Below, piece by piece: positions 18,901 to 64,000 of a DNA stretch of 64,000 nt. The notes under the pieces were generated by a model, which worked only from the letters and a program-made list of their open reading frames with translations, was not told the DNA's origin and searched no databases. Source of the DNA: Adineta ricciae. Lineage: Eukaryota; Rotifera; Eurotatoria; Adinetida; Adinetidae. Position 1 is the stretch's first letter; each line of letters starts with the position of its first letter. Made by a program: the position numbers and the translations under genes. The stretch spans positions 310,001-374,000 of the forward strand of contig CAJNOJ010000030.1 of the NCBI GenBank assembly GCA_905250025.1, given 5' to 3'.

Positions 18901-21900
18901 TCAAGAGATGAACGTCTTTTTGGTTAATGTCGCACGTTCCTAGAATGACATCGACAGAAAGAGATAAATATATATTGAAGAATTTCGGTAATTACCTTGC
19001 CGTCAGGGTTGATTAATGTTGTGACAATATGTGAACCTGTATGCCATGTTGATACAGACGTAGCAATTAGATCATCATTATTTTTCAGTTCAGATTCAAA
19101 TGCTTTGGCTAAGATCTAAATGGAATCGATTGAAGAGGATCAAAGGATGGATGCCAAGGTTGTGCGGATTACTTTAAGTGAATGATTCGCTTTGAGAGGA
19201 GCATGTTCAGGAAATGTGAAATGTATTTTCTCGCCCGTATTGTTTTCTTGACATATTATCCAATTAGTAAGATCAATATTTTTTGACTGACTGGTGTTAT
19301 CGACAACGATGTAATGTCCTTGCGCATGACATTCAGATATACTAATGGGGCCTTTAGCAGACTTTTGAAATGTTACACGAGATTGAAGTGCTAGAAAAGA
19401 AAGATACAAAACAATGAACTCTACTTGCTTATAGTGTTTCAAAAGTTCCCAGAACTAATTGTTATGATATTCTATTGGAAATCTTCGGCTTTCTAATCTA
19501 CTTTTCGTACGCTCTGTGGGATTAAGTAATATGTGCTGAATTAGTAAGCTTGATTATCATTCTCGCTAAGATACTCTATCTGTTGTTCGGTTACACGACT
19601 CTGAATACATCTAAGTATTTATGAATATGGTGGCTTCCTTTCAGGTGACTAAGCTTACCGACGCTCAATCTCGAAGATTCCTTCTTGATTAACTTTTTCT
19701 CAATGCATTCGACTATTCGGTAGAATTATTACCTGCCGCAAGCGCTACTCGCTGGCAAGTAATGACTCGGAAATCTCTAAATGCAGGTTAATCGAATGCT
19801 ATTTCCGGAAACTTTTCGATCACGCAAGTAGATCAAAAGATAGTTCTATCAATAAACATACGTCCATCTGAGTCTTCTGTAGTTGTTGTAACTGTATTGA
19901 CGTTGTTTAACCAAGTTGATGGTATCTGTTGATTACTCTTTTGAATAGTCAATGACGGCATACTAGTTGGATTCGGAGAACTTGGTTTCGAAAGTAGATT
20001 TGACGAAAGATCAGTTTCTATCGATGGGCATAGTTGTGCATCGTTGGGTGTTGATGTCGATAGACGAAATGTAATTTCATCACAATTAATATTCATCGTA
20101 ATAGGTAATGACACGCCACGTTCACGTTCACAGATCAGAAAAATACTTTCTTCAGGACTTGAACATGTTTTATTTTGTAGTTGTTTGTGTTCCGTCAGCT
20201 CCACTTGTTTCTGTGGCCGAGCTATGGATGAGGGACATGTTTGATAGCTATCTGCTTCAGAAATATCAAATGCGAGTTCGTTTGCTGGCTGGTTGAATGC
20301 ATCGAGTGTGTCTGATCGTAGTGGTATACCTGTAGTTAAAATTTCAGTCGGAATCGAATTCATAGTTTGATCGCGATGAGGTTGGAATGATAGTGGACGT
20401 CGTAGAGAATCAGACACTGGTGCAGCAATCTAAAGAATGAAATAGAAAGAAACAGTGATTGTTATATATATATATGTGTGTGTGTGTGTGTTTAGAAACA
20501 TGATCTAGAACGATAGTCAGCTTCTTCACATGTGCTCTCATCTTTGAACTATTATTTGGTCTGTAATGAGTATGTGTTTATTTAGAAATAATTAATCAAA
20601 ATATGTCTACCACCTCCCATACGAACGCGATGCGCATTCACATGTGTTCGATATAGATCATAAGCTTGATTAATTTCAAATTGCATGGTACACACCCATG
20701 ACGAATGAATAATATGTGATCATCTTTATGAGAGAATTTAAGATAAGTTTTGTATCTTACTCGCGTTCTAACAACTCCTTTGGTTTCATCATCTGCATCG
20801 TAGTCGATTGGTAAATTTGTATCACCCTCATCTGTTGTTGTTCGCCACAAACCAGGATATCCTGGTATAATATAAACATCATCAAGTTGCTGCTTCGCTA
20901 GTGCTGGTGAACTTTCATGGCTCGATGGTGTAGTCACAAGATCATAACGATGATAACGTTCGTCATGAGTACTTATACTACTACTTGTTTCTGTTGTTTT
21001 ATCACTAATACGATGAATATTTGTTAGGTCATGTTCTTCGAATTCTTCATCAACATCTTCGTCAGTACTACTTGTATCTAAATTTTTTAATCGACATGGC
21101 GATGAACGATACAGTCTTCGGTAGAGTATGTCGTCTGATTGCGATGTTAGATTATCCGATGCATCGAGTTCAGTTAAGTCATCGTCTTTGAGTGCCGATC
21201 GATGAGCTACAGGTAGTGGTTGGAGAAAAGGTTTTTCTTCTCTAATGGCATAGTTCGGCATGTCTTCTGATATTGGTATGACTGGTAAACGATCTTGCGA
21301 AGAATCATGCATTTGATGTATTGCATAAGAAACGTAGCGATCTGAACTGGTGATAGGAGATGATGTCGTTGAACTTGTGGATTTCTCCTGTGGATGAAAA
21401 TGTTGATCAAGTGATAAGGGTGAAGCAATACTATGACCGCGTAAAGCATGAATTAATTCGAAAGAATTCGGTTCGGTATTTGTCGGAGATATTCGCCCAA
21501 GATCAACGGTTAGATTCGGTACAACATTTTCATATTCACTATTCGTTGATGCCTAAATAAGATAAACATAATGATTTTGTCCGCAGTGACACACATGAGT
21601 CGACATACCAACTGTTGTAACACATCATTATCAATCTAAATGGAAGCAAACAGCTAGATTAGTTTCACATTCAACATATAATTATCTTACTTCTATAGTT
21701 ATCGGTTCCAAAACAGCTGGATCTTCACTGATGCGATCAGTTATTTCGGGCTGTGATGAAACCTTTTCGATGATGTTATTCATCACTTTTTGAACAATAT
21801 TTTCAGAGCTTTGATGATGATCGACAGCAGGTTTCAGTTCAATCTAACGGAAAGAAAGAAGATTTTAATATAGATAAAAAAAAAATAGAATTTTACCATT

Positions 21901-24900
21901 TCCTTCGTTGCTAAAATATCGGTATTCTCCAGAGTAATTGCACTGGTGGATGACGGAGGAAGTTGGCTGGTGTCTTCCATAGCCAGTTTCTATATTGTAC
22001 GAATTAGAAACGAGATGAAAAGAATGAACATTACGTACTTTGGAAGTTATTGCTGTGGGACTTGCTCGCTCTTCTGAAGCTAAAGTCGGAGATTTTTCAA
22101 AAGGGGCAATCTGTTCGACTTCTTTCAATACAGAAGCTCCAATAGGTACGATCTGGAATTCCGAAGTCTAAATAAAAAATTGTACAGAAATATTAGTTTT
22201 GTTTTCAATAGAATTACTTTGTTGATCACTGGTTGATCGCATGCCAAAGAAAAAGAAGTAGAAGACACCATACTTGCAAGTGTATCGTCAACGCTGACAA
22301 ACGATGGTGTCGCATCGTCTAATCTCTCGTCAGCAATCGAAGTATCCTAAATATACCGATTGAATCATGCTCATACAGAAGAGAGGACATACCGTTAATT
22401 CAATGGATGCATATTCAATTTCAGAGATATCTTCTTGACTTCTCATGTCGATTTTGTCGCCAGGTATAACATTTATTTCTAACGCCTCTAAATCTGTTTG
22501 GATAGCCGGTGTCGTTGAGCTTGATGCATCATTGATTATAAAGGGCACGTCAGTGTCATTTACGGCATAAGGGGCGAAACCAGTGGTAGTCTCTTCCGAC
22601 GCATTAGTACTCGCCGATGGAATAACATTGACTGCTTGCATTTCTTCGATAGGCAAAAGAACCTGAAACTGTGGACTTAATTTAGCAATACTCCCTCGTT
22701 GTTATCTCACCGGTTCTGCAACTGATGGAGTTTTAACATCGTTAGAATTTCGTTGTTCTGTATTTGCTTCAATCTCATTCAATAGAATTGCTCCTTGTGC
22801 GGTTTCAGCTGGCAGTGTATTTGTCGATTCTGTTAAATTTATTGCACTATCATTCAATTGTTCACTGGAGGACGGAGTAGGTGACTTCTACAAAGTTGAT
22901 TGTAAGAGTACTGGCACTAATGACATACAACTTTCATTACCTTCAAATCTTTCGTGAAAATTGATTCGGCGGAAAGAGTCATTGGTAGATTCTCTTGTTT
23001 TTGTGTTGATGAATCGTTCGTTACTGACTTATGATTTTCATGTGTTTGGATAATTTCATTATTTCGAGTAGTATCATACTGGTGAGAGTGATCTGTTTCT
23101 TGATCGTTCATTTCCACTGGAGTCTTCATTTGCATGCTTGTTACGACATTCTGGATAGCTTCCATATACGACGTAATCGGTGTCGAAATGGTTTGACGAA
23201 GAGCAGTCAAAATAGATTGCTCAATACTTTCAGAATCAATTTCTGGTGGATTCTATTATAAGAAAATAACGCAAAGAAAGCAGATATGCACAAAGATCTT
23301 AATAAGTGTTAACGTACTTCTACGAATTGTGTATGATCACCTAAATATCCATGATAGACATCACTACTTATGTAGCGATTACTGATCAGGTCTGACAATC
23401 GATCGATGGGACTGACAATTGTTGGCAACGACCGTGGTATTGTGATCGCTTCATCTTCTATGATATTACCTGGTGATATGATAATTTCATTTTGATTTGC
23501 TTCATTCTCTGGCACTACTTGAACATCAATTTCTATATTGACAGGACGCTCTTCAGCAGATGAAGCATCCTGTTGAAATAACTCAATTGTGGCGACGAGT
23601 TGAGGATTTAGAGCATCGTTCGTGATATCTAGTGGTTCATTTTGACCAATTTGAAAGTCGCCTGAGTCCAGTGAGGTTGTTCGTCGATCAGCAAGTTCTG
23701 AAGAACTTGATGATGCTTCGATCGAACTGATCGATTTGATTTGTCGCACACGAAATTTAGTTCGGGCCTTTAGTGGAGCAAGTTGAAGCTTAGCCGTACT
23801 GACTTCTGGAATATGCGGTGCATCAGGAATGGTTTCTGCAAGCGGTGGCTGGCTCAATAGATGTTCTTGAACAACACCTTGGATGGCGGAAACAAGTACT
23901 TCAGCAGAAATGGATGAACCATGTTTATCGGATTCATACATGTGCTCCTGTTCGATCAGATTCATTGATGGCTCAGAGGGCACGCCTTCTTCCATTCCAT
24001 GGTGATTATCATCATCTGGGACGTCTATCACTGTTTCTTCCTGAGTTTTTTTCATTTGATTTTCACTTATCGAACTCATCTTATTAGTCGTGGTACTTTC
24101 GATTACTAACGGTATTTGCTGTTGTCGTTCAGTTGTCAATGCCATCGTCGCAGTTTGCTTAGTATCATTTGACAATGTCAGAGTTCTGTCTTCGTCCATC
24201 GGTTCAGTTTCCACTTCTTCTTTGATCTGTTCAATCGAAGGTGGTTTCGAAATGTCCGTTGGTGGAGTCATTTCTTTATCCAGATCTATAATAGCAGTGA
24301 TAATCTTACTGTAAGAATCACCACGAATCATGTCCTTTCTTTTCGCTCGTTGTATACATGGTTTCTTAACGAGTCCGGGCAGTTTTTGCGTTTCAACATG
24401 TTTCGGTGGTATCGTTGGTGAATTATCCGAAGAAACTTCATGATCCACCACATTTTTGTTTGAACTCATACTACTCAACGTAGAATGTATGGGTGACACG
24501 CTTGCGAGAATGTCTGAAATATCATTAATTAATGTGTCATATTTCGTAATAGTATTTTCAAGCATTTCAATAGGCCTAGCGGCAACGACAGATAGATCAA
24601 CTGATGGCGAACGTTCTCGTTCGGGTTTTGTTTCTGTAGGCATTATTGCTGACTCCAATGTAGACGTCATAATCGGTGTTAGATGAGTACCTTTCTCGGT
24701 AAGCATTAAAGATGTGTTCGATTTTTCAACCTTTTCTAGATTAACATCGTCTTGATCGGTGTCATTGACTAATGATGAGTGTCGGGATGCAGAAGGTTTT
24801 GGTGACGACGATAGTGATGGAATACGATCAGTAGGTGGTGTCATCCTAGCAGTATTTTCATACGGCGACTCAGAACGATCAGTAACCAGATATGCAGATG

Positions 24901-27701
24901 AAGATGGTTGTGGCTGAACATCAGTTATTTCCTTCGACGATGAATAATTGGAATCCGATAGTTGGTTTTCAAATGACGACGACTTTTTAGATGAAACAGA
25001 GAAAAGGTTAGATGGAGGTGCTGGAATTGGATTGGCGCGATCAAATGAATTCGATGTTAGTATACTGTTTACAGGATTAAAACGAGTTTCGCTCGTTCTA
25101 AATTCATTGTCCGTAGATAAATCTATTCGCCTCGATACCGATGGAAGTGGCTCAACATTCGTAAAGATTGGAGTCGTTAGGCGATGCATAGATCTCCTGG
25201 GACTTGGTTTTGGAGCAAACATAGATAGATAGGCATCTGTATAGTCTGAGCTCGGTGGTGTGATGGATTTTCGACGTCGAAGTCCTCGTATGTGACTAGC
25301 CTCGTAAAAAGTCTTCGCCTTGAAACTTCGGGTTTGAATAACATCACCTTCATTCCATTGTTGTGACCATGAATGTTCAACGATGGACGTCCATGGTATA
25401 TTAGAACTAATTGTCAATGGACGTCGATGTCTACCATAGACTTTGTCGAATATGGTCGTTTCCGTTTGAGCTGACTCCACTGATCTGAATGGTACAGAAG
25501 GCGTGAGAATTGAATAGTTATTTCTGAGAGCTACAAATAGAATAAATAGTAAAAAACATGCAACATAGTGATTATAAATGTTCTTCTGTTACCTGGACCG
25601 CTGTTAGTTTTCGTGCGGAACCGTGGATATGAATCTGTACATGGCCTTTCACTCTGTAAATGATTGAGTGGTTGCGTTGATAATGGTGCAAAACTTGCGC
25701 TAGAATTTACACATACGAAAATATTATGTAAAGGGTGAAATAGAACACTATGTACAGCGTACCTGTGCTCTTTTCCGTCAAGTAATTTTCGATAACCAAC
25801 AATTTCTGAATGAAGAGATGATTTTGTTGACATTAAATCAGTATAATCCCGATCTAGTTCATCGAGACGTGTTTGTAAATCTTGTATTTGATGATAATGT
25901 TCGTTCGTTGCACGAATTTGACCATCTCGTTCTGCACGAATCGAATTTTCCAACTCTCGAATACGATTTTCAATACTTCCATTCTACAACAATCAAAGAA
26001 CCGAAACTTGTCTCTATGTAAAAGAGAAGAAACACAACTAAATTACCCTTTGTCGCATTGCCGCTATATCTTGTCGAGATTCCGATATCAATACTTCTAA
26101 TTTTCGAAATTCATCTTTGCTACGAACACTTTCTGTTTGTTCAATTGCTCGACAGGATTGTACGTCTTGAATCTAGTAGAACAGAAACAGTGAGCGCTTC
26201 GAGTTCGATTTATTCCTACTGCTTGCGCGACTTTCCATTGATACCACGCTTCTAATTCATTTCGTAGATGATAATTCCGTTGATCATATTCTGTGCGGAT
26301 AGTTTTAATCGCCGCCGATAATTGATGTTCAAATAGATTGGTTGGATCGAATGATACATTGATTAAACTCATTTGTTTAATTTGTTCGATTTTTTGTGCG
26401 TGAAGACGTTTCAAAAGCTCAATCTCCTCTTCGAGTTTTTCTTTTTGATTTTCTAATTGAACTCGTGTAATGATTTCATGATCTAATTCTTTGGTTATCT
26501 GTTGAATATCTAAGATAAGATCTTGAGAGGTCATTCGATAACGTTTCTGTTCTTCTTGTAAATCATCTAGACAGACAAAGTGCGTACGCGTTTGATTATC
26601 ATGATAAAATATCAAGAATTATCTGCCCATATCAATGTTCGCCTTGGATTCTGATGAAAGGAACAAAACTTACTTAGACGACGATGAAATAGATGGAGAT
26701 CTGCTTCGTTGTCGCATATCTGCTTTTGTAACTGGTCGATTTTTCGTCGATCAGAGCCTTTTCCAACTAATGATGTAAATCTAGAAAAGCCAAACCGAAA
26801 ATTTCGCTTTCGATTACAGCAGAGATCTGTTTCTTGTTTTTGAACATACTTGTCTTTTAATTGTGTAAGCTCTTGTTCGGCGTGTCTCACGCGAAGGTCA
26901 GCTTCGATACGATCTTTTTCTGTATCATCTATGATATGGCATGCTTCACGTACTTCGATTTCGTACATTTCTTTCAATCGATGTTTCTGCGAAGACCATT
27001 GTGAACTAAAAGTAGTTGTTTTATTTAGAAATCATCCCCCGAAAGAGGATTTCATAAAACAAAATCTACCGTATTTGATCGATCTCGAGTTGAAGTTTCC
27101 GGTTTTGACCTTCTAAAAATCGTACGCGTTCAACGTAGGCAGCAAAGCGGTGGCTAAGATAGTTCATATCATGTACGTCCGGCTTCTCAGTTTCTCTAAA
27201 AACAATACACAATTTGAAAATCATTGAACGATTATCGATGATATTAGACAGAAATTATCTTCGATGTGTTTGTTTTCTCTTTCAATAACAACAGACAGAT
27301 CTGTCTATCATCTTCCGCAGATTTCCTCTTTATTCCTTCGTGGAAATCAACCCTTCGTTCGCTTCTTTTATAATCAAAGTAACAATTAACATCATTGGCG
27401 ACAGACACATTGTCTAAAACATAGTAACACATGCTGACAGACCCGATTGACTCTTTCTTCTCATCCTATTCCGTATTGAATTACATGCTTAGGAAGGAAG
27501 AAAATGAGTATTGCTATGATAATCAATAAGTAAACAGATAATTAATTGAGCGAGTTATGTAAGATGATTTTGATCATCGAATCTATCCTGCGACGCTTAC
27601 CGAATTGCAATAACAGTCGTCGTTGCTTTGCTACCATTCGATTTCAGTGGGATACCGAAGGAATTCACTGTTTCTGCAAATATTGTATGTTTGGATGACA
27701 T
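18901..27701 (-). CDS. giant intermediate filament protein with lamin-tail domain (copy A)
   Basis: I resolve 22 exons from 27701-27601 down to 18939-18901. Their sum is 6,480 bases, exactly 2,160 codons including stop, which supports the model. The head is 34 residues. The rod (27195-25763, about 360 residues) starts with LSHRFAAYVERVRFLEGQNR and ends with SEIVGYRKLLDGKEHR, the two IF consensus ends, and has the long lamin-type coil 1B. About 1,640 Ser/Thr/Pro/Glu-rich residues follow; the largest exon is 25479-23318. A lamin-tail domain then closes the protein (19390-19173, 19115-18996): SRVTFQKSAKGPISISEC, IVVDNTS, DLTNWIICQ, FTFPEHAPLKANHSLK and ATSVSTWHTGSHIVTTLINP. No CaaX box is present (ends KKTFIS), so a cytoplasmic rather than nuclear IF is likely. 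An ordinary invertebrate IF protein is 500-600 residues. Exon 8 (107 bases) may be alternatively spliced. Confidence 0.88.
20463..20491. repeat. AT/TG dinucleotide microsatellite in an intron of the giant IF gene
   Basis: A run of AT followed by TG dinucleotides lies in the intron between the exons ending at 20761 and starting at 20429. The matching site in copy B (near 51710) has only a few TG units, so the tract is variable between copies. Confidence 0.85.
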
Positions 27702-29652
27702 TCTCGTCGAATAACTTGTAAGCAATTGAAAAGTGATCGAATCTTCTTCGTTGCAAACGGATAATGAAGAAGATTTTACAAGTAATTAAACTAAAACAAT
27801 ACATGTTTCAAAACAATTTTCAATCGAACGTCTATTCTACTCGCCTTGCTTGCTAGAAAAAATTTCAAAGCTCGAGATGTATCCATTGGAAAAGTGTAGA
27901 AGCTCTGATCTTCGTCAAAAAATCGTCTATATAACGAGTCCTATTTCTTTTCGAGAAAATCGAGAAAAATAGATAACATCTTTCTTCTCTTTCTTCTCAT
28001 CAAGCGATAGATGTCTTATTTATATTACAAGTGACATATCTATAGTGTCGAAGCAAACAAAGTTAGTTCGAATTTCGTTAAGAAAAACAATACATTTGTC
28101 TATTTCTTCATACACAATTCTATCCATATGATTTAGTTGCATTCTGATAAACTAAGTAAATTATTTGCTTTACTTTCCTGAGGATATACAATCAAAAGAA
28201 AGAGAGAGAGAAAAAGAGACGAAGAGAATAAGCAAAAGTTGTTTTCCAACATTTATTCAATGGTATTGACATGCCGATATGATAATCGAATGCAGTTCAT
28301 TAACGCACACCGCATTTCAATGATTTATGTCTCTATATTTCCAATAGATGATTGAAAGACTTTCTTCACTTGAGAAAGAAAACATCCAGTTGGCATATCG
28401 AGATGTTTCTTATACTGTAAAAGAACTTTATTCGATGACAGATGACGATATGATAGATGAGTTACTTGTCCACATGAAAAAAAGGGAGAATTCAGTACAC
28501 TAACTCAAAATAAAGACCCAGGTTTTTCTCCGAAGGAAAAAGGGATTGCGGCTATTAGCCAGGAAATGATCTTGACAACATATTTAACATGTCAATATCT
28601 GATTGGAAAGAGTAATCTTAATCGTTATACATCGAGCTAATCTCGAAAAGAATTTTCCAGACGGAAGTAGTTTGAGAGCAGAAAAATGCCGATATTCTAT
28701 CTGATATGATTCCGTTCTAGACAAGTTCTTACACCGCGCGTGAAAACTCAATACTCTCGAGTAAATGTACGAATGTTTCCTTCATAAATATACAAATATT
28801 GCCCTATAACTAACTCATTAGTTCCAGTTTAGATGACATACCGTTAAGATATATGTGGTTAATCAGCGTACACATTCATTTATTGGGTCATACCAACAAC
28901 AGCAGCAACTTTGCGTTGTATTTACTTGTTTGGTTCTATTAGGACAACACTTTTCTCTTTTTCAATCTACTAATGATTGTCGTCGTAAGGATATGTAGAA
29001 CGTTATCAAGATATAATAAAATGCGAAAGGAAGTTGTTGCTTGTCGCCTTTCCTTCGAAGGAAACGTCCTCTCTATTCTATATTCTCCTATCATCTTTCA
29101 CGCCTGCAACTGTCCTTCTTCCACTGTTTGTTCTGTAGATGAAGGCAAGATCAACATAATTGTATGTCTTCAATTGAGAAGACATTGTCTATTCATTGGT
29201 ATGGAAACAAATAAGATAGCTATTGTAGACAAAAAAAAGGTCTAATCTCTTTTCTTTATTTCGTATATAGATCATCATTAATATGACAAATATTTTCTTT
29301 ATTTTATTGCGTCATTTGATAAAAATATTTATAGATGTTATACTCTCAAAATAAATCCAGTATAGGAAATTGTTTTATAAATTGATTGACAGAGATAAAT
29401 CTGTCGTCGATTCGAGATTAACAAGTGCTCGAACTGTACTAGTTGATCATCGATGAATTTAATGAGACAAAATTAAGAATAATAATTCAATTCTATCGAG
29501 TGCCTTATAGTACGTGTAAGTGTTTATATTTATTTCGATTACAGATAAAATCTAACATATACATTTCTTACTAAAAACAATCAACATAAACAGATCCATT
29601 TTGAGATGACGGTCGAAAAATAACACGTACAGTTCGATGTAACACTTTTATT
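27702..29652. other. intergenic between IF genes 1 and 2, unusually conserved between copies
   Basis: Upstream region of the giant IF gene and downstream region of IF gene 2. It contains a GA-rich stretch near 28197-28222 and a short ORF at 28348-28503. The stretch from about 28560 to 28800 differs at only a few positions from copy B (59770-60010), much less than the adjacent coding tail. Confidence 0.5.
28348..28503 (+). pseudogene. short ORF, frameshifted relative to copy B
   Basis: 51-codon ORF starting MIERLSSLEKENIQLAYRDV, directly after an acceptor-like ccaatag. In copy B the same frame runs 70 codons. Here a run of A's is two bases longer (aaaaaaaggg against aaaagagg), which shifts the frame and brings a stop. 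Three amino-acid changes precede the shift. The predicted peptide is charged and helical with no recognised domain. It could be a decayed exon or simply non-coding DNA. Confidence 0.25.
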
Positions 29653-31367
29653 TTAATTCTGTGAGGTGAATTCGCGACGGCTTGATGTATGTGAATACGA
29701 TCCACTAGCACCTCCTTGTCCACCGCTATAGCTAGCACCCGATCGACCAGGACTACCAACGATGCTGCCTATTCCTTGATTGGTTGCACTTGTGCCACTA
29801 CTGGTGATAAACGTACGTGAAATAGTGGTATGACGACCACCACCTGAATAAGCAATTGAACCAGCGACACCGCCACCTGTTGCTCGTTCAGCTTCCATTC
29901 GTCGTGCTTCTTCGACAACGTGATCAACGATCTGTTTAAGACCATCACGATTGTTTGTTCCTTCCAAGAGTTCTCGGTATGTGTTGATTTCTTTCTCTAA
30001 TGATGTCTTCATGTTTGTGACTTCTTCGTATTCTTTCTTCAATTGTTCTAATTTACGACGTAATTCATCGATTTCAGATGCACGTTTTTGTATTAATCGA
30101 CTTCCTAAAAGTAATGAAATAGAAAGGAGAAATGCATCGAAAATTTCTGCATACCGTCGTCTCGTTCTTGATCGATATGTAATTGAAGTTCTCGGATGCG
30201 ATTATTCAATTCTTCGTTGCGTGCTTTCATGTGTGCAACTTCGTTTCGTGTGGTTAATAATGTTGTACGCAGTTTTTCTTCTTGAATGCGTTGTTGTTCG
30301 CTTTGAATTGGATCAAGGTCTGGTTTTTGATGACGAAGAATCAATTCGTTATACGACATCATATATCGATTATGTAAATCTGCACGTTGTTGATCATTTA
30401 AAGCTTCGAATTCGTTGCGAATATCTCGAATAGCTTGTGCTAATTCGTTACGGAAGAAGTGCGATGGATCCAAGTTAACATCGACAACTGTTTTCGAGCG
30501 TAATTCGTTGAGATCAGCCTCGTGCATTTGTTTCAACATGGCTAACTCATCTTCTAAAGCCATCTTTTCTGTATCGAGCGAACTTTTAACGAAGGTTTCA
30601 TTCTGAATTTCGTTTTGTAGGCGAGCAATTTCCGATGCTAAGCGTTGAGTTTCGGCTTTGTATCGTCGTGCTTCGTCTTCGAGATCGGCTAGACGACGGC
30701 GAAAGAGATTGATTTGTGCTTCATTTTCAGCGATCTGCTGTTGAAGACGATCGATGGCTGAACGGTCAGTTTCTCGACTGTTTAAAATTTCTTCGTAACG
30801 TTTACGATAACGACCAGCTTCTTTTTCAGCATCACGAGCTTTAACTTCAGCTGCTGCCCGATCGCGTGTTGTGTCATCGATAAGTTTCTTTGCTTCGCTC
30901 ATTTCAACTTCATACATTTCCTTGATCTTGGATGAACCTTGCCCGGCTTTGTTTTGAAGGGCATCTAATTCCAATTGTAATTTGCGATTTTGTGCTTCGA
31001 GGAAACGAACTTTTTCAACATATTGAGCAAATTTATCGTTCAATTGGCACAATTCACGTTTTTCTTTTTCACGTGTTTCATTCACAGCAACTAACGCTGA
31101 TGTACCACGATTTGGTCGTAATGGAATACCAGCAAAATTGCCAAGACCTGCAATTGATGCTAAGTTGGATATTCCACCACCAATGCTTCCAGCACTGAAA
31201 CCACCGCTGCCACCACTTGTCGAGTAAGATTGGTACATGCGGGTCATGATACCTGGTGGGCCACCTGCACGACGTTGAACATTGGTTGTTCGGGGTCCGA
31301 TTTGCGATTTGTAGGAGCTGTAGGAAGAGCTGCTGCTCTTGGTAAAATCGTTGTCGAAGTCTTGCAT
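29653..31367 (-). CDS. cytoplasmic intermediate filament protein, Gly/Ser-rich ends (IF gene 2)
   Basis: Two exons, 31367-30155 and 30104-29653, with a 50-base intron; 554 residues. The head is Ser/Gly-rich and keratin-like (GGSGGFSAGSIGGGISNL). The rod opens LNDKFAQYVEKVRFLEAQNR and closes with EKEINTYRELLEGTNN, and coil 1B has the long form seen in lamins and protostome IFs. The tail is Gly/Ser-rich (GGGVAGSIAYSGGG) and has no lamin-tail domain. Upstream, an acceptor-like site at 31403 suggests a 5'-UTR intron. The start Met (MQDFDNDF) is the first after that acceptor. It lies about 2 kb upstream of the giant IF gene on the same strand. By family it forms cytoplasmic filaments by coiled-coil dimerisation. 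Confidence 0.92.
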
Positions 31368-31684
31368 TATATTGCTTGTAGTACTTGTGTCGAGGAAATG
31401 ATCTGAAGGGAGAAAGAAGATATTCAATGTGCAAAACAAGAGAACACACGCACACACTCGCACTATGTCGAGAAAAGGAGAAGAAATGAGTGTCGTATGA
31501 AGAAACATGTCCTTTTATTGATCATTTCTTTTCGTTCTTTGTGTTGTATGATTCGATGAGAAAGAACAAAATGGAGAAATATTCTATGTTCGCCTGTACT
31601 GTACCCTTTCTTTCGCTCGGTCGTGCCCGTTGTCTTGCACACACACATTTAATTATTTTTTTGTTTGGTATAAAAAAAGGAGCA

Positions 31685-48439: not shown

Positions 48440-49892
<1,453 letters not shown>

Positions 49893-49893
49893 N
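49893..49893. other. single N, left junction of misplaced block
   Basis: One undetermined base separates the PABP linker (ending in ccgcaac) from the start of copy B. A lone N exactly at an abrupt change of gene content is the mark of an assembly join. Confidence 0.9.
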
Positions 49894-50149
49894 GATTATT
49901 AAGAATAGAAAACGAAGAAAAATTCTTCATCCATATTTGTTTGATAGAAGATTCTTCGTTTTTTTTTGCAGCTGTTATCTATCTAAAAATCACACGATAA
50001 ATTCCATCATTCATCGCTATAAATATGAGATTGACATGTTGTTTAGATGGTACTGATCAAGGACAAAAGACAAAATCGAGCTCATTCTTTTTTTTTCCCG
50101 TTGTATATTTGAAATCGCGGTAACTAACAAGAAAAATAGAAAATGTTCG

Positions 50150-53100
50150 TCAAGAGATGAACGTCTTTTTGGTTAATGTTGCACGTTCCTAGAATGACAT
50201 CGACGGAAAGAGATAAATATATATTGAAGAATTTTGGTAATTACCTTGCCGTCAGGGTTGATTAATGTTGTGACAATATGTGAACCTGTATGCCATGTTG
50301 ATACAGACGTAGCAATTAGATCATCGTTATTTTTCAGTTCAGATTCGAATGCTTTGGCTAAGATCTAAATAGAATCGATTGAAGAGGATGAAAGGATGGA
50401 TGCCAAGGTTATGAGGATTACTTTAAGTGAATGGTTCGCTTTGAGAGGAGCATGTTCAGGAAATGTGAAATGTATTTTCTCGCCCGTATTGTTTTCTTGA
50501 CATATTATCCAATTAGTAAGATCAATATTTTTTGACTGGCTGGTGTTATCGACAACGATGTAATGTCCTTGCGTATGACATTCAGATATACTAATGGGGC
50601 CTTTAGCAGACTTTTGAAATGTTACACGAGATTGAAGTGCTAGGAAAGAAAGATACAAAACAGTAAACTATACTTGCTTATAGTGCTTCAAAAGTTCCCA
50701 GAACTAATTGTTATGGCATTGTATTGGACATTTCCTGTCTTCTAATCTATTTTTTGTACGCTCTGTGGAATTAAGTAATATGTGTTGAATTAATAAGCTT
50801 GATTGTCATTCTCGCTAAGATACTCTACCTGTTGTTTGGTTACACGACTCTGAATACATCTAAGTATTTATGAATACGGTGGCTTCCTCTTAGATGACTA
50901 AGCTTGCCGACGCTCAACTTCGAAGATTCTTTCTTGAATAACTTTTTCTTGATGCATTCGACTATTCGGTAGAATTATCACCTGCCTCAAGCTCTACTCG
51001 CTGGCAAGTAATGACTCGGAAATCTCTAAATGGGGGTTAATCGAATGCTATTTCCGGAAACTTTTCGATCACGCAAGTAGATCAAAAGATAGTTCTATCA
51101 CTAGACATACGTCCATCTGATCCTTCTGTAGTTGTTGTAACTGTATTGACGTTGTTTAACCAAGTTGATGGTATCTGTTGATTACTCTTTTGAATAGACA
51201 ATGATGACATACTAGTTGGATTCGGAGAACTTGGTTTCAAAAGTGGATTGGACGAAAGATCAGTTTCTATCGATGGGCATAGTTGTGCATCGTTGGGCGT
51301 TGATGTCGATAGACGAAATGTAATTTCATCACAATTAATATTCATTGTAATAGGTAATGACACGCCACGTTCACGTTCACATATCAGAAAAATACTTTCT
51401 TCAGGACTTGAACATACTTTATTTTGTAGTTGTTCGTGTTCCGTCAGTTCCATTTGTCTCTGTGGTCGAGCTATGGATGAAGGACATGTTTGATAGCTAT
51501 CTGCTTCGGAAATATCAAATGCGAGTTCATTTGCTGGCTGGTTGAATGCATCGAGTGTGTCTGGTCGTAGTGGTATACCTGTGGTTAAGATTTCAGTCGG
51601 AATCGAATTCATAGTTTGATCGCGATGAGGTTGGAATGATAGTGGACGTCGTAGAGAGTCAGACACTGGTGCAGCAATCTATAGAATGAAATAGAAAGAA
51701 ACAGTGAGTGTTATGTGTAGATGTTTAGAAACATGATCTAGAATGATAGTCAGCTTCTTCATATGTGTTCTCATCTTTGAACTATTATTCGGTCTGTGAT
51801 GAGTATGTGTTTATTTAGAAATGATTAATCAAAATATGTCTACCGCCTCTCATATAAGAACGAGATGCACATTCACATGTGTTCGATATAGGTCATAAGC
51901 TTGACTAATTTCAAATTGCATGGTTCACACCCATGGTAAATGAATAGTATGTAATCATCTTTATGAGAGAATTTAAGATAAGTTCTGTGTCTTACTCGTG
52001 TTCTGACAACTCCTTTGGTTTCATCATCTGCATCGTAGTCGATTGGTAAACTTGTATCACCCTCATCTGTTGTTGTTCGCCACAGACCAGGATATCCTGG
52101 TATAATATAAACATCATCAAGTTGCTGCTTCGCTAGTGCTGGTGAACTTTCATGGCTCGATGGTGTAGTAACAAGATCGTAACGATGATAACGTTCATCA
52201 TGAGTACTTATACTACTACTTGTTTCTGTTGTTTTATCACTAATACGATGAATATTTGTTAGGTCATGTTCTTCGAATTCTTCATCGACATCTTCGTCAG
52301 TACTACTTGTATCTAAATTTTTTAGTCGACATGGCGATGAACGATAGAGTCTTCGGTAGAGTATGTCGTCTGATTGCGATGTTAGATTATCCGATGCATC
52401 AAATTCGGTTAAATCATCGTCTTTGAGTGCCGATCGATGAGCTACAGGTAGTGGTTGTAGAAAACGTTTTTCTTCTCTAATGGCATAGTTCGGCATATCT
52501 TCTGATATCGGTATGACTGGTAAACGATCTTGCGAGGAATCATGCATTTGATGTATTGCATAAGAAACATAGCGATCTGAACTAGTGATAGGAGACGATG
52601 TCGTTGAACTTGTCGATTTCTCTTGTGGACGAAAATGTTGATCAAGTGACAAGGGTGAAGCAATACTATGACCACGTAGAGCGTGAATTAATTCAAAAGA
52701 ATTCGGTTCGGTATTTGTCGGAGATATTCGCCCAAGATCAACGTTTAGGTTCGGTACAACATTTTCATATTCACTATTCGTCGATGTCTAAATAAGATAA
52801 ACGTAATGATTTTGCCTGCAGTAACACACATGAGTCGACATACCAACTGTTGTAACACATCATTATCAATCTAAACGGAAACAAACAACTAGATCAGTTT
52901 CACATTCAACATATAATTATCTTACTTCTATGGTTATCGGTTCCAAAACAACTGGATCTTCACTGATGCGATCAGTTGTTTCAGACTGCGATGAAACTAT
53001 TTCGGTGGTGTTATTCATCAATTTTTGAACAATATTTTCATGATGATTATCAGCAGGTTTCAGTTCACTCTGACGGAAAGAAAGAAGATTTTAAAACAGA

Positions 53101-56100
53101 CAAAAAAATAGAATATTACCATTTCCTTCGTTGCTAAAATATCGGTATTCTCTAGAGCAACTGCACTGGTGGATGATGGAGGAAATTGACTAGTGTCTTC
53201 CGTAGTCAGTTTCTATATTGTAAGAATTAGAAACGAGACGAAAAGAATGAACATTACGTACTTTGGAAATTATTGTTGTGGGGCTGGCTCGCTCTTCTGA
53301 AGCTAAAGTCGGAGATTTTTCATAAGGGGCAATCTGTTCGACTTCTTCCAATAGAAAAGATCCAGTAGGTACGATTTGGATTTCGGAAGCCTAAATAAAG
53401 AATTGTACAGAAATATTAGGTTTTTTTTCAATAGAATTACTTTGTTGATCACTGGTTGATCGCGTGTCAGAGAAAAAGAAGTAGAACACACCATACTTGC
53501 AAGTGTATCGTCAACACTGACAAATGATGGTGTCGCATCTTCTAATCTCTCGTCAGCAATCGAAGTATCCTAAATATACCGATCGAAACATACTTATACA
53601 GTAGAGATGACATACCGTTAATTCAATTGATGCATATTCAATTTCAGAGATATCTTCTTGACTTCTCATATCGATTTCGTTGCCAGGCATAACATTTATT
53701 TCTAACGCCTCCAAGTCCGTTTGGATAGCCGGTGTCGTTGAGCTTGATGCATCATTGATCATAATGGGCACATCAGCGTCACTTACAACATAAGGGGCAA
53801 AATCAGTGGTAGACTCTTCCGGAGCGCCAGTACTCGCAGATGGAATAACACTGATTGCTTGCATTTCTTCGACAGGCGAAAGAATCTAAAACTTTAGACG
53901 TAGTATAAGATTCCCTTGTCGTTATCTTACCGGTTCTGCAACTGATGGAGTTTTCACATCGACAAAATTTCGTTGTTCTGCTTTTGCTTCAATCTCATTC
54001 AATAGAATTGTTTCTTGTGTAGCTTCAGCTGGCAGCGTATTTGTCGATTCTGTTAAATTTATTGCACTATCATTCAATTGTTCACTGGAGGACGGAGTAG
54101 GTGACTTCTAAAAAGTTGATTGCAAGAGTACTAGTATTAATGACATATTATTTTCATTACCTTCATATCTTTCGTGAAAATCGATTCTACAGAAAGAATC
54201 GTTGGTAGATTCTCTTGTTTTTGTGTTGATGAATCGTTCGTTACTGACTTATGCTTTTCATGTGTTTCTGTAATTTCCTTATTTCGATTGGTATCATACT
54301 GAAGAGAGTGATCTGTTTCTTGATCGTTCATTCCCACCGGAGTCTTCATTTGCATGCTTGTTACGACATTCGGGATATCTTCCATATGCGACGTAATTGA
54401 TGTCGAAATGGTTTGACGAAGAGCAGTCAAAATAGATTGTTCAATACTTTCAGAATCAATTTCTGGTGCATTCTATTATAAGAAAATAACGTAAAGAAAG
54501 CAGACATACACAAAGATCTTAATAAGTGTTAACATACTTCTACAAATTGTGTATGATCACCCAAATAACCATGATAGACATCACTACTTATGTAGCGATT
54601 ACTAATCAAGTCTGACAATCGATCGATGGGACTGACAATTGTTGGAAACGGTGGTGGCATTATAATTGCTTCATCTTCTATGATATTAACTGGTGGTATG
54701 CTAATTTCATTTTGATTTGCTTCATTCTCTGGCACTAGTTGGACACCAGTTTCTATATTGACGGGATGTTCTTCAGCAGATGAAGCACCCTGTTGAAACG
54801 ACTCAGTTGTAGCGACGAGTTGAGGATTAAGAGCATCTTTTGTGATATTTAGTGGTTCATCTTGACCAATTTGAAAGTCGCCTGAATCTAGTGAGGTTGT
54901 TCGTCGATCAGCAAATTCTGAAGAACTTGATGATGCTTCGATCGAACTGATCGATTTGATTTGTCGCACATGAAATTTAGTTCGGATCTTTAGTGGAGCA
55001 AGTTGAAGTTTAACCGTACTAGCTTCTGGAATCTGCGGTGCATCAGGAATGGTTTCTGCCACCGCTGGCTGGCTCAATAGATGTTCCTGAACAACATCTT
55101 GGATGTCGGAAACAAATGCTTCGGCAGAAATTGATGAAACGGGTTTGTTGGATTCATATATGTGCTCCTGTTCGGTCAAATTCGTTGATGATTCAGAAGG
55201 CACGCGTTCTTCCATTATATGTTGATTATCATTATCTGCGACGTCTGTCGCTATTTCTGCGTGAGTTTCTTTCATTTGATTTTCACCCATCGAACTCGCC
55301 TTATTAATCTTGATACTGTCGATTACTAACGGGATTTCCTGTTGTCGTTCGGTTGTCAATGCCATCGTCGCAGTTTGCCTAGTATCATTCGACAATGTCA
55401 GAGTTCGATCTTCATCGATCGGTTCAGTTTCCACTTCTTCTTTGATCTGTTCAATCGAAGGTGGTTTGGAAATGTCCATTGGGGGAGTCATTTCCTTGTC
55501 TAGATCTATAATAGCAGTAATAATCTTACTGTAAGAATCACCACGAATCATGTCCTTTCTTTTCGCTCGTTGTATACATGGTTTCTTAATGAGTCCGGGC
55601 AGTTTTTGCGTTTCAACCCGTTTCGGTGGTAGTGTTGGGGAACTATCCGAAGAAACTTCATGATCGACCACGTTTTTGTTTGGACTCATACTACTCAACG
55701 TAGAATGTATGGGTGATACGCTTGCGAGAATGTCCGAAATTTCGTTAATTAATGTGTCATATTTCGTAATAGTATTTTCGAGCATTTCAATAGGTCTAGC
55801 AGCAACGTCAGACAGGTCAACCGATGGCGCACGTTCTCGTTCGGGTTTTGTTTCTGTAGGCGTTATAGCTGATTCCAATGTAGACGTCATAACTGGTGTT
55901 GGATGAGTATCTTCATCGATAAACATTAGAGATGCGTTCAATTTTTCAGCCTTTTCTAGATTAACATCGTCTTGGTTGGTGTCATTGACTAATGATGACT
56001 GTCGTGATACAGAAGGTTTCGGTGACGACGATAGTGATGGAATAAGATCAGTAGGTGGTGCCATTATAGCAATATTTTCATACGGCGACTCAGAACGATC

Positions 56101-58921
56101 AGTAACTAGATATGCGGATGAAGACAGTTGTGGCTGAACATCAGTTATTTCCTTCGACGATGAATAATTGGAATCCGATAGTTGGTTTTCAAATGACGAC
56201 GAGTCTTTAGATGAAACAGACAAAAGGTTAGATGAAGGTGCTGAAATTAGATTGGCGCGATCGAAAGAATTCGATGTTAGTATACTATTCACTGGATTAA
56301 AACGAGTTTCGCTCGTTCTAAATTCATTGTCCGTAGATAAATCTATTCGCCTCGATACCGATGGTAGTGGTTCAACATTCGCAAAGATCGGAGTCGTTAA
56401 GCGATACATAGATCTCCTGGGATTTGGTTTTGGAGCAAACATAGATAGATAGGCATCTGTATAGTCTGAGCTTGGTGGTGTGATGGATTTTCGACGTCGA
56501 AGTCCTCGTATGTGACTAGCCTCGTAAAAAGTCTTCGCCTTGAAACTTCGAGTTTGAATAACATCACCTTCATTCCATTGTTGTGACCACGAATGTTCAA
56601 CGATGGACGTCCATGGAATATTCGAACTAATCGTCAATGGACGTCGATGTCTACCATAGACTTTGTCGAATATGGTCGTTTCCGTTTGAGTTGACTCCAC
56701 AGATCTGAATGGTACACAAGGTGTCAGAATTGAATAGTTATTTCTGAGAACTACAAATAGAATGAATAGCAACAAATATGCAATATGATGAGTAGAAATG
56801 TTCGTCTGTTACTTGGACCGCTGCTAGGTTTCGTGCGGAACCGTGGATATGAATCTGCATATGGCCTTTCACTCTGTAAATGATTGAGTGGTTGTGTTGA
56901 TAATGGTGCAAGACTTGCGCTAGAATTTACACATAGGAGAATATTGTGTAAAAGGTGAAATAGAACACTATATATATCGTACCTGTGCTCTCTTCCGTCA
57001 AGTAATTTCCGATAACCAGCAATTTCTGAATGAAGAGATGATTTTGTTGAAATTACATCAGTATAATCTCGATCTAATTCATCGAGACGTGCTTGTAAAT
57101 CTTGTATTTGATGATAATGTTCGTCCGTTGCACGAATTTGACCGTCTCGTTCTGAACGAATCGATTTTTCCAACTCTCGAATACGATTTTCAATACTTCC
57201 ATTCTACAACAATCAAAGAACCAAAGCTTGTCTCTATGCAAAAGAGAAGAAACGCAACTAAATTACTCTTTGTCGCATCGCTGCTATATCCTGTCGAGAT
57301 TCTGCCATCAATACTTCTAATTTTCGAAATTCATCTTTGCTACGAACATTTTCTGTTTGTTCAATAGCTCGACAGGATTGTACGTCTTGTATCTAGTAGA
57401 ACAGAAACAGTGAGCACTTCAAGTTCGATTTATTCCTACTGCTTGCGCGACTTTCCATTGATACCACGCTTCTAATTCATTTCGTAGATGATAATTCCGT
57501 TGATCATATTCTGCACGGATTGTTTTAATCGCCGTCGATAACTGATGTTCGAATAGATTGGTTGGATCGAATGATACATTGATTAAACTTATTTGTTTAA
57601 TTTGTTCAATTTTTTGTGCATGAAGACGTTTCAAAAGTTCAATCTCCTCTTCGAGTTTTTCTTTTTGATTTTCTAATTGAACTCGTGTAATGATTTCATG
57701 ATCTAATTCTTTGGTTATCTGTTGAATATCTAAGATAAGATTTTGAGAGGTCATTCGATAACGTTTCTGTTCTTCTTGTAAATCATCTAGACAGACAAAG
57801 TGCGTACGCGTTTGATTATCATGATAAAATATCAAGAATTATCTGCCCATATCGATGTTCGCCTTGGATTCTGATGAAAGAAGCAAAACTTACTTAGACG
57901 ACGATGAAATAGATGGATATCTGCTTCGTTGTCGCATATCTGCTTTTGTAACTGGTCGATTTTTCGTCGATCGGAGCCTTTTCCAACTAGTGATGTAAAT
58001 CTAGAAAAGCAAAATCGAAAATTTCGCTTTCGATTGCAACAGAGATCTGTTTCTTGTTTCGAACATACTTGTCTTTTAATTGTGTAAGTTCTTGTTCGGC
58101 ATGTCTCACGCGAAGGTCAGCTTCGATACGATCTTTTTCAGTATCATCTATGATATGGCATGCTTCACGTACTTCGATTTCGTACATTTCTTTCAATCGA
58201 TGTTTTTGCGAAGTCCATTGTGAACTAAAAGTAGTTGTTGTATTTACAGATCATTCTCCGAAAGATGATTTCACAAAAACAAAATCTACCGTATTTGATC
58301 GATTTCGAGTTGAAGTTTCCGGTTTTGACCTTCTAAAAATCGCACGCGTTCAACATAGGCAGCAAATCGATGATTAAGATAGTTCATATCATGTACGTCC
58401 GGCTTCTCAGTTTCTCTAAAAACAATACACAATTTGAAAATCATTGAACGATTATCGATGATATTAGACAGAAATTATCTTCGATATGTTTGTTTTCTCT
58501 CTCAATAACAACAGACAGATCTGTCTATCATCTTCCGAAGATTTCCTCTTTATTCCTTCGTGGAAATCAACCCTTCGTTCGCTTCTTTTATAATCAAAGT
58601 AACAATTAACATCATTGACGACAGACACATTGTCTAAAACATAGTAACACATGCTGGCAAACCCGATTGACTCTTTCTTCTCATCCTATTCCGTATTGAA
58701 TTACATGCTTAGAAAGGAAGAAAATGAGTATTGCTATGATAATCAATAAGTAAACAGATAATTAATTGAGCGAGTTATGTAAGAAGATTTTGATCATTGA
58801 ATCTATCCTGCGACGCTTACCGAATTGCAATAACAGTCGTCGTCGCTTTGCTACCATTCGATTTCAGTGGGATACCGAAGGAATTAACTGTTTCGGCAAA
58901 TATTGTATGTTTGGATGACAT
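50150..58921 (-). CDS. giant intermediate filament protein with lamin-tail domain (copy B)
   Basis: Same architecture as the gene at 18901-27701. Exon 1 starts at 58921 (MSSKHTIF). The rod has the same start and end motifs (LDGREHR at its end). The long Ser/Thr/Pro-rich tail includes a main exon from about 56700 to 54538. The lamin-tail domain is at about 50640-50245 (SRVTFQKSAKGPISISECHT), with the stop at 50150. Splice sites match copy A except before the large tail exon: the second of two tandem acceptors (atcag in A) reads atctg here (base 56701). If the 107-base exon 8 is included, the large exon goes out of frame; if it is skipped, the frame is kept (EHR then SVESTQTE). Otherwise no stop or frameshift was noticed. 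Tail substitutions against copy A are numerous. Confidence 0.82.
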
Positions 58922-60859
58922 TCTCGTCGAATAACTTGTAAGCAATTGAAAAGTGATCGAATCTTCTTCGTTGCAAATGGATAATGAAGAAGATTTTACA
59001 AGTAATCAAACTAAAATAAAATATGTTTAAAAAGAAAACAGTTTTCAATTGAACGTCAATTCTACTCGCCTTGTTTGCTAGAAAAATTTTCAAAGCTCGA
59101 GATATATCCGTTGGAAAAGTGTAGATGCTCTGATCTTCGTGAAAAATCATCTATATAACGAGTCCTATTTCTTTCGAGAAAATCGAGAAAAATAGATAAC
59201 ATCTTTCTTCTCTTTCTTCTCATCAAGCGATAGATGTCTTATTTATATTACAAGTGACATATCTATAGTGTCGAAGCAAACAAAGTTAGTTCGAATTTCG
59301 TTAAGAAAAACAATACATTTGTCTATTTCTTCATACACAATTCTATCCATATGATTTAGTTGCATCCTGATAAACTAAGTAAATTATTTGCTTTACTTTC
59401 CTGAGGATATACAATCAAAAGAGAGGAGACGAAGAGAATAAGCCAAACTTGTTTTCCAATATTTACTCACTGGTATCGACATGCCGATATGATAATCGAA
59501 TGTAGTTCATTAACGCACACCGCACTCAATGATTTATGTCTCTATATTTCCAATAGATGATTGAAAGGCTTTCTTCATTTAAGAAAGAAAACATCCAGTT
59601 GGCATATCAAGATGTTTCTTATACTGTAAAAGAACTTTATTCGATGACAGATGACGATATGATAGATGAGTTACTTGTCCACATGAAAAGAGGAGAATTC
59701 AATACACAAACTCAAAATAAAGACTCAGGTTTTTCTCCGAAGGAAAAAGAGTTTGCGGCTATTAGCTAAGAAACGATCTTGACAACATATTTAACATGTC
59801 AATATTTGATTGGAAAGAGTAATCTTAATCGTTATACATCGAGCTAATCTCGAAAAGAATTTTCCAGACGGAAGTAGTTTGAGAGCAGAAAAATGCCGAT
59901 ATTCTATCTGATATGATTCCGTTCTAGACAAGTTCTTACACCGCGCTTGAAAACTCAATACTCTCGAGTAAATGTACGAATGTTTCCTTCATAAATATAC
60001 AAATATTGCCCTATAACTAACTCATTAGTTCCAGTTTAGATGACATACCGTCAAGATATATGTGGTTAATCAGCGTACACATTCATTTATTGAGTCATAC
60101 CAACAACAGCAGCGACTTCGCGTTGTATTTACTTGTTTAGTTCTATTAGGACAACACTTTTCTCTTTTTCAATCTACTAATGATTGTCGTCGTAAGGATA
60201 TATAGAACGTTATCAAGATATAACAAAATGCGAAAGGAAGTTGTTGCTTGTCGCCTTTCCTTCGAAGGAAACGTCCTCTCTATTCTATATTCGCCTATCA
60301 TCTTTCACGCCCGCAACTGTCCTTCTTCCACTGTTTGTTCTATAGATGAAGGCAAGATCAACATAATTGTATGTCTTCAATTGAGAAGACATTGTCTATT
60401 CATTGGTATGGAAACAAATAAGATAGTTATAGCAAGCAAAAAAAGGCCTAATCTCTTTTCTTTATTTCATATATAGATCATCATTAATATGACAAATATT
60501 TTCTTTATTTTATTGCGTCATTTGATGGAAGTATTTGTAGACCTTATATCCTCAAAATAAATCCTGTATAGGAAGTTGTTTTTCTAAATTGATTGACAGT
60601 GATAAATCTGTCGTCGATTCATGTTTAACAAGTGCTCGAACTGTACCAGTTGATCATCGATGAATTTAATGAGATAAAATTAAGATGAATAATTCAATTC
60701 TATCGAGTGCCTTATAGTACGTGTAAGTGTTTATATTTATTTCGATTACAGATAAAATCTAACATATACATTTCTTACTAAAAACAATCAACATAAACAG
60801 ATCCATTCTGAGATGATGGTCGAAAAATAACACGTACAGTTAGATGTAACACTTTTATT
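58922..60859. other. intergenic DNA of copy B
   Basis: Matches 27702-29652. It includes the ORF at 59557. The GA-rich run of copy A near 28200 is shorter here. Few substitutions are seen between about 59770 and 60480. Confidence 0.5.
59557..59769 (+). other. 70-codon ORF, open here but frameshifted in copy A
   Basis: Reads MIERLSSFKKENIQLAYQDV, then a helical acidic stretch (SMTDDDMIDELLVHMKRG), stop at 59769. The ATG follows an acceptor-like ccaatag. No domain was recognised. Its frame is not preserved in copy A, so either it is a dying exon or it never encoded protein. Confidence 0.25.
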
Positions 60860-60906
60860 TTAATTCTGTGAGGTGAATTCACGACGGCTTGACGTATGTG
60901 AATACG
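60860..60906 (-). pseudogene. 3' fragment of IF gene 2 (copy B), cut at the assembly join
   Basis: The last 47 coding bases of an IF gene 2 counterpart, encoding SHTSSRREFTSQN and stop, identical in protein to the end of the gene at 29653. The rest of the gene is missing because the block ends at the N at 60907. It is therefore a truncated contig end, not a true pseudogene. Confidence 0.85.
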
Positions 60907-60907
60907 N
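60907..60907. other. single N, right junction of misplaced block
   Basis: One undetermined base between IF gene 2 coding DNA on one side and PABP linker coding DNA (gcaatggctgcc) on the other. Confidence 0.9.
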
Positions 60908-61535
60908 GCAATGGCTGCCCAACGATCAGCCATGACTGGAATTGCATCACGGCCAGGTATGTCCATGTCCGCTCGTCCAACACCAGCACCAGGACAAATG
61001 ATGGGTAACAATCAAGTTCGAGCCCAAGGAGGTGTTCAACAACAGCCAGCAACAGCTTATACACGTACAGCACGAAATATGCCACCAAACGTATGTATTA
61101 TTGAGAAGGAATAGAATTTCGGAAAAGTAAAACCCATCGTTTCTTGTTTATTTGTAGAATCAAGCTTCATATCAAGGTTCAATTGTTGTCGCTGGTCAAG
61201 AACCATTAACACCAGCCGCACTTGCTAATGCAACACCACAAGAACAAAAACAAATGTTAGGCGAACGTTTATTTCCTTTGATCCAACATATGCAACCTGA
61301 ATTAGCTGGTAAAATCACTGGTATGCTTTTGGAAATCGATAACACCGAACTTCTCCATATGCTTGAATCTCGTGAATCACTCAAAGCTAAAGTACGTTCA
61401 TTTTCTTCCATGCTAAAATCCAGATCGAATCGTCTCTCTGTCTAGGTTGAAGAAGCTATTGCCGTACTTCAAGCTCACCAAGCTAAACAAATGTATGCAG
61501 CTAAACAAGCCGCATCAAACGCAGCAGCCACATAA
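60908..61535 (+). CDS. PABPC1: cytoplasmic poly(A)-binding protein, C-terminal part (linker and MLLE)
   Basis: Exons 60908-61090, 61158-61391 and 61446-61535 give 168 residues and stop. The Pro/Met/Gln-rich linker ([19 protein letters not shown]) leads to the MLLE (PABC) domain: [42 protein letters not shown] and [20 protein letters not shown] binds PAM2 peptides of Paip, eRF3 and similar partners. With the N-terminal part this makes 561 residues against roughly 630 in common animal PABPs, so some linker is probably lost in the gap. Counting the two N's as bases, the two parts are in frame. A 3' UTR with ATT and GTT repeats follows (about 61697-61730). Confidence 0.93.
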
Positions 61536-62163: not shown

Positions 62164-64000
62164 ATGAAGTGTCTACTATTCATCATATGTTTCGTAAATA
62201 TTCAATGTGATATTACTTATATCGAAGTAAAATATCCATTAACGGTAAGTTAAGGAACGAAATCGAGGAAAGTATTTAAAAAATGTATTTCAAGGGCAAA
62301 CTAGCTCCACCAAACGTAGTATGGCCACATCCACAAAAGATGGAAGTTTCCAACGATTTATTATACATTCGTCCGAACGATCTTCAAGTTGACTCGAATA
62401 TTGAAACTTGCGATATTGTTGCTAAAGCAATCGAACGATACAAACCATTATTCTTCCCACCAACACTTGATATGCACCAGCCACCAGCCGACGCAGAAAA
62501 TATTCTGCAAACGTTAACATTGAATGTTAAAAATAAAAGTCAATGTGAGAAGTATATTGAACTGACCTCCAGTGAAGCTTGTGAGTCATCAGCGTCCATC
62601 AAAAGACGAGAAACCTCATTGTTTCTTTTCCGCAGATAATCTAACCATTAAACAAAAGGTTGCAGTCGTTGAAGCCGAGTCTGTTTGGGGTTTATTGCGT
62701 GGTTTAGAAACGTTTTCACAGCTGATCTATATCAATGAACAAAATTATGTAGGTTTCAAACGACTTTAAAACTATTGCTTTCATCTTTAATTCATTCAGG
62801 TGGTGATAAATAGTTCGGTTAACATTACTGATAGTCCTCGATTTCGTCATCGTGGTATAATGCTTGATACCGCACGGCACTTCGTCCCTGTTCCAGTGAT
62901 CAAAAAGAATTTGGTAACTACTTTCAAATGTACACGATATATTGCTGACAACAGATTTTATTAGGACACTATGTCGTATAACAAAATAAACGTCTTTCAT
63001 TGGCATTTGGTTGATGATCAATCATTTCCATTCGAAAGTAAAACATTTCCGAATCTTTCTCGAGCGGTAATAACTAGCATTTCTCTTCGTCTATCCTCAT
63101 TTCGAATATTATCATCCTTTCAGGGAGCGTTTTCTCCTGATCATGTCTATACGCCTGTTGATGTTGCTGACGTTATTGAGCATGCTCGATTACGTGGTAT
63201 TCGTGTCATTCCTGAAGTAAAGCACCATCTCGGAGTTCTGCTTTCTCAATATCTTTCTCATCGATTTATTAGATTGACACACCCGGACATACATTCTCGT
63301 GGAGTAAATCTATGCCTGAATTGATAACGGTTTGTTGGGCACATGGTAAACCGTATCAAGCGATCTATTCTATCCAAGGTGAAATGGAAATCTTCAATCC
63401 AAGTGAACCACGAGTGTATTCAACGATGGATGCACTTCTTCGAGAAATCAAAGAACGATTTCCTTCGAATTACATTCATCTCGGTATGTAGAAAGAGAAG
63501 TTCATGTTTGATAAACAATGAAAGAATGTGTGCTTTGTGTTTGTTCACGAACAGGTATGGACGAAGTTTATGACAAATGTTGGTAAGTCACATTCCTTGT
63601 GTTTTGAACAGAACTTTCGAATAAGTCGACGAGCTACTTTCAGGCTGTCCAATCCGAATATTCGTCAATGGATGGTCGACAATAATATTTTAAGTACTAA
63701 GAGTCTTCAGAAATATTATGCTGACCGAATTCTTGACATCACTCGAAATATTAGTGTAACACCCATTGTTTGGCAAGATGTTTGGGATGAGAAAGTTGAA
63801 GTATGACTTACATTCATTGCATTACTTTTTTTATTTTACGCTTTTGTTTTCAGTTACCACCAGGTACGATTATTCAAGTATGGAAAGATTCAAGTGATAA
63901 TATAGAATTTGATTCGTGGGCATCGTATCTGAATCGAGCAGCAAATGAAGGCTACAATGTTATTTTATCAAGTCCTTGGTATCTGAATTATATCAGTTAT
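62164..64000 (+). CDS. beta-hexosaminidase (GH20), 3' end outside window
   Basis: Ten exons visible: 62164-62244, 62295-62580, 62636-62748, 62800-62913, 62965-63066, 63124-63216, 63273-63483, 63555-63582, 63644-63800 and 63854 onward. A signal peptide ([15 protein letters not shown]) starts the protein. GH20 landmarks: [112 protein letters not shown] and TIIQVWKDS, ending at [11 protein letters not shown]. This is the lysosomal HEXA/HEXB type, which removes terminal N-acetylhexosamine. The catalytic Asp-Glu pair is kept, but the residue before it is Met where most family members have Gly (HLGGDEV). The exon encoding the Asp-Glu is only 28 bases. HEXA versus HEXB type cannot be told. Confidence 0.92.

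Follow-up and report, generated by a model that had tools for sequence, protein, structure and literature searches.

False heterotype duplication and false chimeric gain are terms of the Vertebrate Genomes Project, exemplified in the zebra finch by three exons of ALDH2 that lie within ACAD10, and the hallmarks given for false heterotype duplication are gaps between the copies and half read depth (PMC9516828); discordant read pairs and heterozygous k-mers present in one copy are further criteria. In bdelloid rotifers, homologous copies on the same scaffold and breaks in collinearity were taken as signs of an ameiotic genome structure in the 2013 assembly of Adineta vaga; later authors noted that in bdelloids collinearity is often broken across a gap in a scaffold, and suspected errors of scaffolding behind some of these breaks (PMC5916493). 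The locus of Adineta ricciae described in this article is best explained, in the terms of PMC9516828, as a false heterotype duplication that brought about a false chimeric gain. It resembles the vertebrate cases described there in apparently holding both alleles in one scaffold, with assembly gaps between them and exons of one gene within another, and it differs from them in its bdelloid host and in gaps that consist of single Ns. With the linked homologous blocks described in PMC5916493 it shares homologous copies in tandem on one scaffold, at gaps; unlike those blocks, it is nested within a gene and presumably belongs to a different assembly.

The window analyzed is a stretch of 64,000 bases (bases 310001-374000 of scaffold C30, contig CAJNOJ010000030.1), and the genome searched comprises 130.5 Mb in 1033 contigs. 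Two Ns are present in the window, each of length 1, at positions 49893 and 60907; both mark scaffold joins whose flanks share no sequence overlap, and between them lies a block of 11,013 bases (49894-60906) that is coding on the minus strand. The joins divide a plus-strand gene for poly(A)-binding protein (PABP). Its 5' part (48440-49892) runs from the ATG through RRM1-4 to the start of the linker and consists of six exon pieces after removal of five GT-AG introns, encoding 393 residues in which four RRM_1 stretches are recognized. The 3' part (60908-61535), with two GT-AG introns spliced, encodes 168 residues that comprise the remaining linker, the MLLE domain (Pfam E-value 9.2e-30) and the stop, giving 561 residues in total. 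The initial annotation had reported this split, the domains on either side of it and the combined length, all of which are borne out by the sequence; position 49892 would represent the end of a contig within PABP. Among the matches listed, the closest annotated PABP to the left part is I4U23_025835 of A. vaga (97% identity over 99%), a single protein of 627 residues that is encoded on a 16.9-Mb contig. No near-identical A. ricciae protein for the split gene was found in the best 120 of 7,998 matches, in which the sole A. ricciae entry (P0075) is 91% identical.

Comparison with seven PABP homologs picked from these best 120 (two from A. vaga, one from A. steineri, one of the C15 type from A. 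ricciae, one from Rotaria sordida and two JGI proteins) places the one long stretch missing from the joined C30 protein, of 68-69 residues, exactly at the join, and these residues are present in all seven. The linker coding sequence spanning both joins is likewise unbroken in DNA alignments with the PABP genes of scaffolds C9 and C15. Since the residues are missing there relative to every homolog compared, approximately 205 bases at the junction were probably left unassembled between two contig ends, in agreement with the earlier suggestion that part of the linker lies in an unfilled gap. It had also been argued that counting both Ns as bases leaves the two parts in frame. The frame is indeed kept; because 68-69 residues are missing at that point, this is probably a coincidence, expected in 1 of 3 cases.

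The block itself carries host genes. Intermediate-filament gene A occupies 50365-58250 on the minus strand (exon limits approximate), with a lamin tail domain within 50365-50667 and rod pieces within 56751-58250. In Pfam scoring of single exons, one rod exon exceeds the cut-off (57.9 vs 40 bits); two further rod exons fall below it, as does the lamin tail (33.8 vs 34.3 bits). The long open frame of the same gene (54529-56808, minus strand, 759 codons) has no Pfam match. This frame is present twice in the window, the other occurrence being at 23309-25588 on the minus strand; the long region between rod and lamin tail is fast evolving, with 33-54% identity in 21 matches, and its dN/dS between the two copies is approximately 0.36. 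The final 47 bases of the block (60860-60906, minus strand) are the truncated 3' end of a neighboring intermediate-filament gene B, comprising its last 14 codons and stop, so that the block stops in the middle of an exon, as had been noted from the outset. That exon is complete at the position of the upstream copy of the block, where the uncut gene B (29653-31514, minus strand) consists of a rod frame at 30105-31514 and a 3' frame at 29653-30201, with PF00038 matches of 3.6e-37 (129.1 bits, above the cut-off) and 1.8e-09 (38.1 bits, just below it). Gene B has a Gly/Ser-rich tail, and genes A and B adjoin as a tandem intermediate-filament pair.

The borders of the block bear no abutting target-site duplication, and its ends carry no terminal repeats beyond shuffled expectation, consistent with the initial annotation. 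The longest common words are 4 bases between the flanks, 6 between the inverted ends and 7 between the direct ends; words at least as long were present in 197, 194, and 136 of 200 shuffles, respectively. Insertion of a transposon or other mobile element was rejected on these grounds and because the content consists of host intermediate-filament genes. A gene nested within an intron was also rejected, as the borders lack splice sites and both joins lie in the coding sequence of the linker.

With the block as query, BLAST gave a single match in the remainder of the window, in which bases 1-11013 of the block align end to end with window positions 18648-29699, on the same strand and with 93.34% identity, 31 kb upstream on the same scaffold; a self-comparison gave this match again. 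Global alignment of the two copies comprises 11,064 columns, of which 10,328 are matches, 673 are mismatches and 63 are gap columns, the latter distributed over 18 indel events. The initial annotation had called the block foreign, a description that does not survive this match; its factual claims hold where they were tested, and what it missed was the whole second copy. Genome searches with two segments that together cover 7,908 of the 11,013 bases yielded, among the best-scoring candidates, only the block, its copy upstream (at 91 and 95%) and homeologs of much lower similarity, with no further allele among these candidates.

Two further scaffolds, C9 and C15, are homeologs of C30 and place the upstream copy in context. 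Window positions 20040-27160 match C9:890429-900798 and positions 18992-27160 match C15:355422-368004, while gene B from 29744 onward matches C9 from 905980; PABP is found in one piece, with no N, at C9:942170-944738 and C15:406760-409326. The counterpart of the block thus lies approximately 40-50 kb upstream of PABP in both scaffolds, no matched piece of the block region is listed more than once in the sequence examined from C9 (80 kb) or C15 (70 kb), and the conserved pieces are collinear along C30, C9, and C15. This order puts 18648-29699 where it would be expected and makes the block within PABP the extra copy. In A. vaga, I4U23_007516 matches the long frame of the block (38% identity, with 60% of the query aligned); its locus tag is 11 apart from that of another PABP, I4U23_007527, and both are on sequences of 16,274,841 bases, which suggests that they are probably separate genes on one chromosome. 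To the right of PABP, a beta-hexosaminidase-like gene, assigned by a weak Pfam match in one exon (24.6 bits vs a cut-off of 27), is single on C30 (window 62293-64000) and present as two tandem copies on C9 (945814-951352) and C15 (410402-415899).

The divergence between the two copies on C30 is of the kind seen between alleles. C9 and C15, which are homologous scaffolds to each other, are 92.5-95.5% identical (first-listed match, 14 overlapping windows of 8.5-11 kb) and 94.5% identical over the region homologous to the block, and the 93.3% of the block lies within this range, toward its more divergent end. Across the gap-free frame of 759 codons, a stop-to-stop frame that closes at the same stop in both copies and in which some intron sequence may be included, block and upstream copy differ with a dS of 0.18 and a dN of 0.066. 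Mean Ks in A. ricciae is given as 0.135 for homologs and 1.267 for ohnologs, with a median divergence of 4.55% between homologous gene copies and a GC content of 35.6% (PMC5916493); the dS of the block is much closer to the mean for homologs than to that for ohnologs, though somewhat above the former. Six segments outside the block and its source were also searched against the genome (48400-49892, 14600-18600, 29750-33700, 61600-64000, 3000-7000, and 38000-42000). For all six, the best non-self match among the best-scoring candidates has 67-77% identity and is located on C9 or C15; none of the six has a listed non-self match of any length above 86%. Among these candidates the second haplotype of the region is therefore not seen elsewhere in the assembly, having been purged, collapsed or being homozygous, with the block as the sole piece of it recovered.

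Single Ns are a recurrent feature of these scaffolds: seven Ns, all of them single, occur in 264 kb from the three. At three of the seven, the flanks repeat each other over 221-1081 bases with 97-99% identity, i.e., overlapping contig ends were joined unmerged, and at the other four, including both Ns of the window, no flank overlap was found. One of the three is at C9:907790, where a stretch of 1,081 bases that occurs once on C30 is present on both sides of the N (C9:906712-908871, 97.3% identity); these are probably unmerged overlapping contig ends, by which the gene B homeolog on C9 is partly falsely duplicated. On C15, a contig of 2,002 bases between two single Ns (354974-356977) repeats 221-227 bases of each neighbor at 97-99% identity, again as unmerged overlaps, and its left end is, by extrapolation, near the position homologous to the left end of the block. 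Single Ns may mark joins with an estimated gap of zero or less, at which SSPACE would write one n; printed support for this rule was not found in the literature searched. The A. ricciae assembly ARIC003 was made from whole-genome-amplified DNA. The methods text of PMC7943196 mentions SSPACE in connection with R. magnacalcarata and R. socialis, does not state the scaffolding method of ARIC003, and gives 121 as the final k of the 'maxhap' assemblies. The block and its upstream copy match exactly over the first 121 bases of the block; an assembler k-mer signature is not claimed from this, as exact runs of at least 100 bases make up 9 of the 635 between the two copies and the run at the other end of the block is only 13 bases.

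Taken together, it is almost certain that the block is an assembly artefact, namely a contig of the second haplotype (haplotig), allelic to 18648-29699, that was misplaced into a gap in PABP. This reading is drawn from the end-to-end second copy and its allele-like divergence, from the uninterrupted PABP and collinear order of both homeologs together with the linker residues missing at the join, and from the single Ns that mark imperfect joins elsewhere in the assembly, three of seven with duplicated ends. The scaffolding or gap-filling error proposed in the initial annotation is very likely on the strength of the homeologs, the homologs and the second copy. In a genome that is diploid and degenerate-tetraploid, C30 would carry mostly one haplotype of the region, and the contig of 11,013 bases from the homologous chromosome would have been kept separate instead of being merged or purged. 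Scaffolding would then have put this contig into the unassembled gap of approximately 205 bases between two contigs whose ends fall within the linker exon of PABP, and a single N would have been entered on either side; the joins would have no reads behind them, and the PABP locus of the animal would be intact. Counting against a misplaced haplotig are the 6.7% divergence, at the more divergent end of the range, the dS of 0.18, somewhat above 0.135, and the lack of overlap at either PABP join, a lack that is shared by four of the seven Ns.

The principal biological alternative is a real ectopic insertion, in which a break in PABP on one chromosome was repaired by pasting in an 11-kb copy of nearby sequence, destroying that copy of the gene. 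Repair of many double-strand breaks is attributed to bdelloids, a subject discussed in PMC5916493, and an end-to-end copy whose source lies 31 kb away in the same orientation would suit such an event. Against it, both breakpoints are Ns, so that neither join is backed by base sequence; conserved linker sequence of approximately 205 bases is missing precisely at the joins; the divergence is allele-like, unlike that of a recent copy; and PABP is whole in C9, in C15 and in the annotated A. vaga protein. An ectopic insertion is therefore very unlikely, and the same holds for the form of it in which one A. ricciae chromosome acquired through break repair a copy of the intermediate-filament region of its homolog. 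An old, true segmental duplication, in which a paralogue came to lie in an intron of PABP or in a PABP pseudogene, could account for the 6.7% divergence, yet the joins are within an exon and not an intron, the block ends within an exon of gene B, and the block-region pieces have only single listings in the stretches of C9 and C15 examined; this origin is extremely improbable. That the block is an unrelated piece of foreign, contaminant or other chromosomal DNA had only the wording of the initial annotation in its favor. It is refuted by the copy 31 kb upstream and is also at odds with the weaker homeologous matches of the intermediate-filament genes in C9 and C15, leaving it next to no credibility.

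The probable misplaced haplotig has several consequences for how the scaffold is read. Intermediate-filament gene A appears on it twice, as a false tandem duplication, and one copy of PABP appears broken; gene B gains an orphan tail of 14 codons at 60860-60906, and homologous copies come to share one scaffold. Such cases can be detected without reads if blocks bounded by Ns are aligned to the scaffold that carries them. The artefact is most likely an ordinary one that carries no biological weight for A. ricciae, and it matters mainly because it can mislead those who use the gene models or tally gene duplicates in this genome.
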